Assembly (NCBI RefSeq): GCF_014217875.1
Contig: NZ_CP059060.1
Coordinates: 744,001-808,000, forward strand
Source: Synechococcus sp. LTW-R
Lineage (GTDB): Bacteria; Cyanobacteriota; Cyanobacteriia; PCC-6307; Cyanobiaceae
Length of the DNA: 64,000 nt
Direction: 5' to 3'
Below the pieces are notes generated by a model. It was not told where the DNA came from. It saw only the letters and a program-made list of their open reading frames with translations, and did not search any database. Position 1 is the first letter of the stretch; each line of letters opens with the position of its first letter. Shown here piece after piece: positions 20,411 to 24,655 of this stretch. The translations under genes were made by a program, and so were the position numbers.

Positions 20411-20803
20411 GTGTTCGTCTACGGCAGCCTGAAACGCGGGGAGCGCTTTCACCATCAGCTGGCCGGCGCAACGTTTGAGGGAACCGCGGAGCTCCAGGGC
20501 CTCGAGCTCTACGACCTCGGACCCTTCCCGATGGCCATCGCCAACGCGCAAGCCGAGACACCCGTCAATGGCGAGCTCTATCGACTGAACGCGCAGCAGC
20601 TTCAGGCCCTGGATCACTTCGAAGGAGCACCCCGGCTCTACCAACGCACGTTGCACGTGCTTGCCGATTGTCGCGAGGCCTGGGTGTATCTCGGAACCCG
20701 CCAGCAGGTGAGGTTTGTCCGGGCCATACCCAGTGGGTGCTGGCGGGGATCAGACCGCCACCAACCAGCGGCCCGCGAAGGCCAGGGCAACGGCCAGACC
20801 TGA
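20411..20803 (+). CDS. Gamma-glutamylcyclotransferase-fold protein
   Basis: A 130-residue protein opening VFVYGSLKRGE (GTG start at 20411), the glycine-rich loop of the GGCT/AIG2 family, with LYDLGPFPMAI and GELYRLNAQQLQALDHFEG, whose Glu is the probable catalytic residue. Members act on gamma-glutamyl amines or peptides. The last 18 codons overlap the 3' end of the convergent AAA+/polyferredoxin gene by 54 bp and look unconserved. Confidence 0.75.
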   Translation: MFVYGSLKRGERFHHQLAGATFEGTAELQGLELYDLGPFPMAIANAQAETPVNGELYRLNAQQLQALDHFEGAPRLYQRTLHVLADCREAWVYLGTRQQVRFVRAIPSGCWRGSDRHQPAAREGQGNGQT

Positions 20804-22864
20804 GGCCCCCAGCCAGACGGCCCGATGGGTCGCCAACTGACGCCGCAGCAGCACCACGCTGGAGGCCCAGCCGAGCAAGACGACCAGGCTCTGGCAAAAC
20901 GCGATCACATGGGCATCCGCCTGCCAAGACGGCATGGACTGGATCCAAGTCCCCGCGAATGGCGAGAGGCTGACAGGCAGCAGCTGTCCGGCTTCGCCCA
21001 TGCCCAAGGGCAGATGCCGGGCTAACAACAGCGCCCAAATCAGGGGCAGGAGTCCATACAGCGTGCGGCGGAGACGTTGACGGCTGAAGACCAACCAGGC
21101 CAGCCCGTAGAGCAGCGCCGGGATCGAGAGAGCCAGCAGAGCCAGGAGCAATCGGGGCAGCAGTGGCCCCTCCACCAGGCTCAACGGAGCACCAGGAATC
21201 CACCCCAGCAGGCGAGGGGCCTGGTGCAAACAGAAGTCGCCGGCCAGCACCAGCAGCAGGCTGGGCTCTCCAGGGGGCACGTCCATCTTCCGCTGGATGT
21301 CGGCGGCAGGTGGCCGCAAGGCGAGCTGCACCGAGCGATGGGGGCAGGCCTGGGCGCAGGTCAGACACAGAACACAGTTCCGGTTGTCGTTGAGGTGGGC
21401 CGGATGGGTGCCCAGAGGGCAACCCGCAGTGGCCAGCCCCTCGCCATCGGCCGGTCCGCCTTTGAAGCAGGCATAGCTGCTGCAACTGCCGCTGCAGGTG
21501 CCGACCTGGGCGCGGAGCTCGAGCACTGACAACTTCGCGAAGAGCCCGTTCATCCCGCCAACGGGGCAGAGATAGCGGCACCAAAAGCGCTTCTCAAAGC
21601 GCAATGAGCCAATCACCGCGCCAGCCGTGATCAACAACAGCAAACAGCTGCTCAACCAGGCCGTGTTCTGGAGGTTCCAGACCTCCTCCCAGAGCAGGAT
21701 CAGGGCAAAGCCGGCCGCCAGCAGGGGGGAGGCCCACTGGTCACTCTCCCCGCGGGGCCAGCGGGCGGGTTACCAACCCAGGGCTCGCGCCAACCGTTGG
21801 CTGATCTCACCCCAGACCATGAATGGGCAAAAGGAACACCAGAGACGGCCAACCAGGGGGAAGCCCAGCAGGATCAACGGCCACCACCAGGCCCAGAAGA
21901 GGTTCAGGGCGCCGTTGTGGGCCCGGTCCTGCGGCCCCAGCCAGAGCCAGAGATTCACCAGAACGAACAGCCAGCTGACCAGGCCAAAGAGGAGGGTGTT
22001 CCAGAGCCGTGGGGCCCGCATCCACTCCCTGAGTTGAGGCTTCCAGCGCCAGATGTCGAAGCGATAGCGCTGTTGGCGAGGCGGCGTCCAAAAGACGTCC
22101 TCCGGAATCAGTGCCTGCACCGTGCTGCCCTCCTGGCGCCGGATCTGCTGCAGGGCCCGGTAGACCAGGGTCTCGAGCTCGCGAATGTTGTTCGGGAAGT
22201 CGTAGGCCTGGAGGCGTTTAATCACCGCCTCGGACACCTCAAGGGACTGGGGCCAGCCGAGTTTGCGGCTGCGCAATCGGATCCCGTAGCGCAGCCATTC
22301 CCCAAGGTACTGCCGGCGCACCCGCAGCGGCGGCACTCGAATCAGGCTGCAGCGCCGCTCCACGTCGGGGCAGACCGTCTCTGAGGTGAAGAACAGGCGT
22401 CCCCGGAAGCCGTGCCGCCCCTCAAGCAGCTCCAGGAGGAACGGTTTGAGGCCCTCTGGGGCACGGTCGAGCTGATCGATCAGGAGTGAGCCCTCGCCAA
22501 CGAGCTCAAGGAGGGAGCGGCCATCCGAGGCCTCGAGGGGCTCGAGCAGGTCGCTCCCATCGGCCTTCAGCAAGGCTGCGTCCAGGCGCAGCATCAACTC
22601 CTTGCGCTGGGGGGATCCGAAGTGGATCAACGCCGCCAGGTTGTCCTTCTCCAGCCCCGGTTCTCCGAGGATGAAGACCGCGCGCCGCTGACCATCCGCG
22701 GCGGCCTGACGCACGGACTCCCGCAGCGTCTTGGCGTAACGACTGCTGCCCACGACACCGCGTCGGGCACGGCCCACCAGCAGGGGCGCCAAGCTCAGCA
22801 GAACAGGGGGTGCGGCCAAGGCCAAGCCAGTGCCAACGTCTTCAGTCTGGAAACAATTGGCCAA
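20750..22864 (-). pseudogene. AAA+ (sigma-54-activator-like)/membrane polyferredoxin fusion gene, broken by in-frame TAA
   Basis: One 705-codon frame with a single stop (TAA at 21770-21772). N-terminal half: degenerate AAA+ domain with GEPGLEKDNLA (Walker A-like), GSLLIDQLDRAP (Walker B with Gln for Glu) and FPNNIRELETLVYRAL, but no GAFTGA loop. Then two membrane spans and GRLWCSFCPFMVWGE. After the TAA the frame continues without interruption: PARWPRGESDQWASPLL, a span, RFWCRYLCPVGG, CSGSCSSYACFKGG, a 4Fe-4S motif CVLCLTCAQACPH, and further spans. This resembles NosR/NapH-type polyferredoxins. The 5' end is uncertain: the only start is a TTG at 22864, ten codons below a stop, beside a low-GC insert. 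Natural decay or sequence error are both possible. Confidence 0.75.
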
Positions 22865-22960
22865 GCTGACCGCGGCTGAGCGGGACGGATACGCTCAGGC
22901 CGATCTCCTCCTGATCGATGGCCCTCACCCTGTTCGGAGACGCCCGCAGCCGTGCCTACA

Positions 22961-23161
22961 TCACATGATTGGATGACTACAGGTGCGACTTCTTTTAGTG
23001 CTTGTCGACATAATTATCTGCTCCAGTACGCCGGAAAGCATCAATTGACAAAACGACATCCACACAACGAAGCCAATCAGAACAAACCAGCGGGAATACA
23101 TAAAGACTGACATCCACCCACGAGACAAAAAGGTGTCATCGAGTACAATCGCAATATGCAC
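22961..23161 (-). CDS. Possible small membrane protein in the low-GC insert
   Basis: A 66-residue frame from a GTG at 23161, or 50 residues from the ATG at 23113 (MSVFMYSRWFVLIGFVVWMSFCQLML...), with one long hydrophobic span and a basic Ser/Thr-rich tail. It diverges from the hydrolase gene. In AT-rich DNA a frame of this size can be chance, so the call is weak. If it is not real, 22898-23190 is non-coding and contains only the promoter of the hydrolase gene. Confidence 0.25.
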   Translation of the reverse strand: MHIAIVLDDTFLSRGWMSVFMYSRWFVLIGFVVWMSFCQLMLSGVLEQIIMSTSTKRSRTCSHPIM

Positions 23162-23190
23162 CGGAATTTTGCGCTACTTCCCGCTGAGCG

Positions 23191-23964
23191 ATGAGAGACT
23201 CCGAAGGCAGACGTATAGCAATCGTTATACATGGGGCCTTTCAGTCCCATGGAAATATTGCAGGTGCAGCCTTGGTCCTAAAGGACTCAGGCGTCAAGGA
23301 AGTTCACATGCCCGACCTTGCAGGTCACGGCGCCGAGAAAGACATAGAGAGATCAGAACAAAATCTGACAGAGAGACTTGCCGAGGAGCTACTGTCCAGG
23401 AGGGAAATAAACCAATCACTTAAAGAAGGCATTGCAGATAGCGTGACAGTTATTGGACACTCACTTGGAGCATCTGTAGCGCTCACTGTTGCCACACAGG
23501 CAATGGTACATTCAAAAAGCCTTAACCTGATCCTAGTTGAACCAATCTTTTGGCTAGGTAGCGAATGCGAAGGCCAAGACCATTTGTCGCAAAATCTAGA
23601 TATCCATACACCACACAATAAAACTCATATTGAAATCACCGAGTACCTCAGGGCGCTTCTAAAAGGCGACAAGCAGCAATCTAGCGACTTCAGCTTACTG
23701 ACCAATCTTGCGAACTTAGACAAAGCCACAATCACACTCATTAGAGGCGGAGTGAGAACTATTCAATCAAAAGAAGAATTCAAGATTGAGACCTCAGAGA
23801 AAGTCATTACTTACAGCGTCAGCGGGCAAGAGATTGGATCGCTAGTTCCGGACAATTACTGCAATAGGGAACTATTTGACAACCAGCTCACAATTAGAGA
23901 TGCAGGTCACAACCCGTTTGCTAGTTCAAGTTTTTACAGGTGGTTGAGGCTTTTAATAAGCTAA
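23191..23964 (+). CDS. Alpha/beta-hydrolase, probably horizontally acquired
   Basis: A 257-residue alpha/beta-hydrolase: oxyanion region VIHGAFQSHGN near the N-terminus, nucleophile elbow GHSLGAS at about 91-97, and the terminal catalytic His in DAGHNPFA. No signal peptide or lid domain is obvious. Codon use is AT-rich (many AAA, ATT, GAA) unlike every other long gene here, which points to transfer from a lower-GC donor. The substrate is unknown. It stands alone between the broken AAA+ gene and the GST gene. Confidence 0.7.
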   Translation: MRDSEGRRIAIVIHGAFQSHGNIAGAALVLKDSGVKEVHMPDLAGHGAEKDIERSEQNLTERLAEELLSRREINQSLKEGIADSVTVIGHSLGASVALTVATQAMVHSKSLNLILVEPIFWLGSECEGQDHLSQNLDIHTPHNKTHIEITEYLRALLKGDKQQSSDFSLLTNLANLDKATITLIRGGVRTIQSKEEFKIETSEKVITYSVSGQEIGSLVPDNYCNRELFDNQLTIRDAGHNPFASSSFYRWLRLLIS

Positions 23965-24053
23965 GCCTACATGAGTGCCAATGTCATAACCTTTGCGCGT
24001 GATGCACACAAGCGGGCGGTTTGCACTTGCTGGCCACTACAACATCAGCAATT

Positions 24054-24073
24054 TATTGAGAACTATTGAGAAC
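24054..24073 (+). repeat. Tandem 10-bp repeat directly upstream of the GST gene
   Basis: TATTGAGAAC occurs twice in direct succession, ending 3 bp before the GST start codon at 24077. It covers the place where a ribosome binding site should be; no AGGAGG-like sequence is present there. It could be a slippage product or a duplicated operator half-site. It lies at the right edge of the low-GC stretch. Confidence 0.6.
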
Positions 24074-24076
24074 CCA

Positions 24077-24655
24077 ATGACAATAACGCTTTACGGTGGA
24101 TTGAGAAGCCGAGCAACAATTCCACATTGGTACATGGAGGAGCGAGGTATCCCCTACACCTGGCAGTTCGTCGATATGGAAGCTGGGGAACACCGCCGGG
24201 ATCCCTACCTCGCCATCAACCCGTTCGGGAAAGTGCCGGCGTTGGTGGATGAGGATCCCGCTCTCCCCGGCGGTCGGGTCCAGCTGTTTGAGAGCGGCGC
24301 GATCCTGCTCTATTTGGCGGAGCGCTTCGGTGGGGAATGTCAGACCGCCGCTGAGCGGGGGCTGGCGCAGCAGTGGGTGCTCTTCGCGAACGCGACCCTG
24401 GCCACCGCACTCTTTGTTCCCTCCAACCGAGAACGGGAATTCCCCCGCCTAATGGAGGTGCTGGATCGCAAGCTCGTGGACGGTCCCCTGATGGGTGGCG
24501 ACTGGGGCGTCGCCGATTGCGCCGTCAACGCCTACCTGGCCTACCTGCCGATCTTCTTCCCGCAGATCGACCTCAGTCCCTATCCCCAGGTTCAGGCAAC
24601 CATTGCCGCCACCCAACAGCGGGCCGCCTACCAACGGGTGATGGGCCAGCGTTGA
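24077..24655 (+). CDS. Glutathione S-transferase family protein
   Basis: A 192-residue GST. The thioredoxin-fold N-domain carries ITLYGGLRSRATIPHWYMEE, NPFGKVPALVD with the cis-Pro, and LFESGAILLYLAERFG (the glutathione-binding Glu-Ser). The helical C-domain ends at VADCAVNAYLAYLPIFF. I start it at the ATG of 24077; the open frame back to 23993 is AT-rich and unlike the family. It overlaps the pdeM-like gene by 4 bp. The first 30 codons are lower in GC than the rest, so the insert boundary may run into the gene. Confidence 0.85.
   Translation: MTITLYGGLRSRATIPHWYMEERGIPYTWQFVDMEAGEHRRDPYLAINPFGKVPALVDEDPALPGGRVQLFESGAILLYLAERFGGECQTAAERGLAQQWVLFANATLATALFVPSNREREFPRLMEVLDRKLVDGPLMGGDWGVADCAVNAYLAYLPIFFPQIDLSPYPQVQATIAATQQRAAYQRVMGQR

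Follow-up and report, generated by a model that had tools for sequence, protein, structure and literature searches.

A recent in-frame stop codon, or a sequencing error, in a conserved cyanobacterial gene that joins a degenerate sigma-54-activator-like AAA+ domain to a membrane iron-sulfur module

On the minus strand of the 64,000-nucleotide stretch of Synechococcus sp. LTW-R DNA analysed here (the window), a long reading frame at 20750..22864 is interrupted by a single TAA, and the locus raises a double question: is this one gene recently broken, two genes, or one gene that still works in spite of its stop, and what would the intact protein do? The frame comprises 704 codons followed by a terminal TGA (20752-20750); translated from 22864 to 20750, it yields 364 residues, the TAA as codon 365 (21770..21772, read 21772-21770 on the minus strand), 339 further residues and the TGA, so that a 704-residue protein results if the TAA is read as glutamine. 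An earlier note on this DNA, which omitted the strand, had placed the stop between two halves of one frame and the residues PARWPRGESDQ after it; the translation reproduces both exactly. The earliest possible start is the TTG at 22864, but a second TTG at 22828 (codon 13), whose counterpart in a homologue of another genus (genome G242) is an ATG, is about as likely a start, and the natural protein may therefore be about 692 residues long.

The ancestral state of the frame can be read from its relatives. Among 25 genomes of the genus, the window's own included, 20 carry the gene (again including its own), two of them as fragments at contig ends. In the 19 other species the two halves line up, in register, with single open reading frames, at 67-96% identity and without any internal stop, which shows that the interrupted frame is not a chance arrangement. 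In most genus mates the codon at the site is CAA or CAG; besides the closest copy (that of genome G014, with 96% identity across residues 308-704), two other near relatives have CAA, the codon recorded at locus L142 too. Across 98 aligned homologous copies, in which some genomes are counted twice, residue 365 is glutamine in 69 and R, T, P, S, K, H or L in the rest, and in none is it a stop. A single gene split by one nonsense codon, as the earlier note had proposed, is what these single open frames and the prevalence of glutamine imply, with CAA to TAA as the simplest change; the alignment with relatives for which that note had called gives one intact gene as the normal condition, and an origin from two separate genes is ruled out by the single frames found in genus and family alike. 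The window copy has an internal stop where its orthologues are one open gene, the usual mark of a pseudogene.

Apart from the stop, the sequence has hardly aged. Of 165 near-invariant columns, the window copy departs from the consensus at one only, D186Y in the RVRRxDL motif (22307..22309, minus strand), and no other decay is measurable. Measured against the G014 copy, dN/dS is 0.066 overall, and downstream of the stop it is 0.079. On the branch of the window copy itself, with the intact, 91%-identical copy of another genus (G237) as sister, the ratio is 0.195 before the stop, 0.200 after it and 0.197 overall, as compared with 0.206 for the whole gene on the sister branch; relaxed selection in the window copy is not seen in this comparison. 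As substitutions on both sides of the stop follow the pattern of the intact sister, the stop is either recent or a sequencing error. Taken as a whole, the locus is probably best explained by a recent CAA to TAA change at Gln365 that leaves a probable null allele of a gene whose intact product may be a redox protein with a pseudo-AAA+ domain. Loss of function is the probable consequence, judging from the sequence. What remains would be a 364-residue N-terminal product, comprising the AAA+ domain together with the first membrane helices and devoid of the second CxxxCP motif and of the ferredoxin clusters, while the distal half after the stop is probably untranslated.

The most durable of the competing explanations is that the wild strain has an intact gene and that the TAA stems from an error of sequencing or assembly, or from a change in culture. 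The stop lies one base away from the codon of close relatives in an otherwise undecayed gene; however, the assembly consists of one contig with 100% completeness, true loss of the gene is frequent across genus and family, and in this very strain a foreign gene has entered the region upstream. An error or culture artefact is considered unlikely, though it deserves to be kept in mind.

The evidence of loss is extensive. The gene is absent from 4 of the 14 good (near-complete) genomes of the genus, two of which have clean empty sites: in G017 and G003 the two genes that normally flank it, for a gamma-glutamyl cyclotransferase-like protein and a glutathione S-transferase (GST), are adjacent, with nothing between. 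Family-wide, 82 of 167 good genomes hold the gene. Copies in G133, G159 and G070 carry frameshifts at differing places, that of G241 has two internal stops and that of G140 is a remnant; a programmed frameshift or a stop common to the family is ruled out, since other copies break at different places. Loci L102, L103, L104, L107 and L108 are such independently broken copies in other species, with frameshifts, stops or a remnant. The gene is hence conserved yet dispensable, and its break in the window is ordinary pseudogenisation, that is, gene loss at an early stage, or possibly a sequencing error; a nonsense transition in one strain would open a process of loss that some sister species have already completed. 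The gene also appears to move. After G014, the nearest copies by tree include those of G237 (L093, 91% identical to the window protein) and G242 (L097, 85%), which belong to other genera and lie at unrelated chromosomal places, G237 carrying a second, native-type copy as well; this suggests horizontal transfer.

The surroundings of the interrupted gene are partly normal and partly peculiar to this strain. At its 3' end, the convergent gamma-glutamyl cyclotransferase-like gene (20411..20803, plus strand) overlaps it by 54 bases, and the divergent GST gene (23993..24655, plus strand) is likewise a normal neighbour. Between the interrupted gene and the GST gene, an alpha/beta hydrolase reading frame (23191..23964, plus strand) has been inserted, which is found at this place in none of the 24 other genomes of the genus; the stretch that holds it (22,901-24,000) has a GC content of 47%, against 66% for the window. 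This insertion may have cut the gene off from its upstream control. In G014, the contig ends before the insertion point.

That the gene still works, either by readthrough of the TAA or because its two parts serve as two proteins, is very improbable. Purifying selection is indeed equally strong before and after the stop, but a recent stop predicts equal constraint too, and every relative aligned lacks a stop at the site. Moreover, the earliest candidate for an in-frame restart is the TTG of codon 404, 39 codons downstream, and as this lies beyond the conserved membrane helix 375-395, a working split is unlikely.

In the intact protein, the N-terminal half contains a sigma-54-activator-like AAA+ domain with its lid (residues about 38-260; 22085..22753, minus strand), recognised by Pfam (Sigma54_activat and AAA_lid_14), by profile matches and by structural comparison. 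Pfam PF00158 scores 21.1 bits on the N-terminal half, above the cut-off of 20.2, and 18.8 bits, below the cut-off, on the whole read-through protein; a profile search of the PDB matches NifA (9qq6, E 4.8e-32), PspF, NtrC1, FleQ, VpsR and NtrX; and a Foldseek search with an AlphaFold2 model, whose pLDDT is mostly near 90 in this half, retrieves FleQ, NtrX and NtrC1 at E about 2e-9. The catalytic motifs are degenerate. Walker A reads GEPGLEKDN (residues 67-75; 22640..22666, minus strand) here, in the genus and in most members of the A-type, to which the window protein belongs, with GEPGLGKDN in some homologues, and a canonical-looking version (GSGKT or GTGKT) occurs only in the B-type paralogue discussed below. 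Walker B reads GSLLIDQLD (residues 125-133; 22466..22492, minus strand), its Asp-Glu pair being replaced in all 43 aligned family members (by DQ, DK, NN or others). In the same 43, GAFTGA was not found in the corresponding stretch. The description in the earlier note of a sigma-54-activator-like domain with a weakened Walker B and no GAFTGA is borne out by these matches, and the altered Walker A, which it had missed, is to be added. The changed Walker residues, though conserved, do not prove that ATP binding or hydrolysis has been lost.

By comparison with the bacterial enhancer-binding proteins (NtrC/PspF/FleQ/NifA, PF00158), with which it shares the AAA+ fold, the lid and the PPLRxRxxDL and FPxNxREL motifs, the window protein has GLEK in its Walker A, lacks GAFTGA, the Walker B D-E pair and a DNA-binding domain (none appears in Pfam scans), is fused to a membrane ferredoxin module and is encoded in a genome without sigma-54. 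Cyanobacteria were already said in the earlier note to lack sigma-54, and this holds well: Sigma54_DBD (PF04552) has no match in the window's own genome and exceeds the cut-off in 1 of 194 genomes sampled from the phylum, and PMC3162934 reports neither sigma-54 nor its activators in any of the 29 cyanobacteria sequenced at the time. A Sigma54_DBD match at G382:C1:411956-412339, in a frame of 207 aa, is strong (62 bits, E 2.3e-16) and unexpected in a cyanobacterial genome; contamination or transfer may lie behind it. As GAFTGA is absent, the Walker pair lost and sigma-54 missing from the genome, the protein is not a sigma-54 activator, although both share a fold. That it is nonetheless a true transcription activator of this type working with a different sigma factor, in the manner reported for TyrR-like proteins, is barely credible, for while fold and lid match those of sigma-54 activators and activators without sigma-54 do exist (PMC3162934), neither GAFTGA nor the Walker B Asp-Glu pair is present in any of the 43 members, no DNA-binding domain is detected by Pfam and the AAA+ domain is tied to the membrane.

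The remainder of the protein (residues 285-704; 20753..22012, minus strand) forms a membrane 4Fe-4S module, identified by Pfam Fer4_5, by the helices of the AlphaFold2 model and by 12 cysteines conserved without exception in the 43 aligned family members. It contains paired CxxCP motifs and a CX2CX2CX3CP ferredoxin motif, the latter being C497-x2-C500-x2-C503-x3-C507-P (21344..21376, minus strand) in the translation and the family alignment. The earlier assignment to a NosR/NapH type stands as a resemblance to NapH and fails as a membership: NCBIfam NapH/MauN (TIGR02163) scores 41.6 bits over residues 337-513, far from its curated cut-off of 213. In both, two CxxCP/CxxxCP motifs adjoin membrane helices, and a CX2CX2CX3CP ferredoxin motif comes after them; in comparison with NapH/MauN, the window protein has extra C-terminal helices (533-703) and the AAA+ fusion. 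Neighbouring nap, nos or mau genes were not seen, and comparison of the model of the membrane half with solved structures returns no fold match (best E 1.6).

How might such a protein work? Tentatively, and going by sequence features, the intact protein can be viewed as a membrane iron-sulfur electron-transfer protein whose AAA+ part, without hydrolysing ATP, acts as a regulatory platform that binds nucleotide or oligomerises. The AAA+ domain would be cytoplasmic and make no contact with sigma-54; the Walker B change predicts a loss of hydrolysis, so that this part may bind nucleotide or form a ring without turnover. Located beside the membrane ferredoxin chain, the platform would be joined in most cyanobacteria to a cyclic-nucleotide domain: homologues from genomes beyond the window's family usually run to about 850 residues and start with a cNMP-binding domain, which the window's clade lacks. 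Electron flow through the 4Fe-4S module could in this manner be tuned to the redox or sulfur state of the cell.

The sulfur connection comes from the B-type, a deep paralogue, which resembles the window protein in architecture and in its 12 cysteines at about 34% identity and differs from it by its GSGKT/GTGKT Walker A, its N-terminal cNMP domain and its proximity to cysK. In seven (L121, L137, L234, L235, L237, L238 and L239) of the nine B-type loci matched with full context, cysK adjoins the gene or lies within about 600 bases; several B-type loci also carry sulfide:quinone oxidoreductase (SQR)-like genes, an ArsR-type regulator, rhodanese, petC or psbA, and two copies reside on plasmids. 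This gene company points to a tie between the B-type and sulfide or sulfur redox. To carry that role over to the A-type, by analogy, is conjectural, because no conserved operon partner of the A-type gene is found outside the window's own family of genomes.

More speculatively still, a catalytically dead AAA+ domain, usually equipped with a cyclic-nucleotide sensor, may gate a polyferredoxin module in an unstudied class of cyanobacterial membrane redox regulators, with a general form, that of the window, and a sulfide/cysteine form. The family is widespread and, as far as found in the open-access literature, unstudied: searches there with combined terms for the AAA+/membrane-ferredoxin architecture returned nothing. 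The stop as such is an early stage of ordinary gene loss, and the interest of the locus rests on this family. In annotation, a sigma-54-activator domain is taken to mark a transcription activator, and at least one deposited record describes a member of this family in that way; the B-type records BAZ78296.1 and WP_281009908.1 carry the labels 'nitrogen assimilation regulatory protein' or 'cyclic nucleotide-binding domain-containing protein'. Here, the domain has lost its catalytic residues and is joined to a membrane iron-sulfur module, in a phylum generally without sigma-54. Should a redox or sulfide role prove true, a whole set of cyanobacterial annotations would change, and the natural null of this strain would offer a ready comparison. 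As a separate observation, ArsR-type regulator genes adjoin A-type copies in two distant genomes (L119:10287-10640 and L123:11042-11443).
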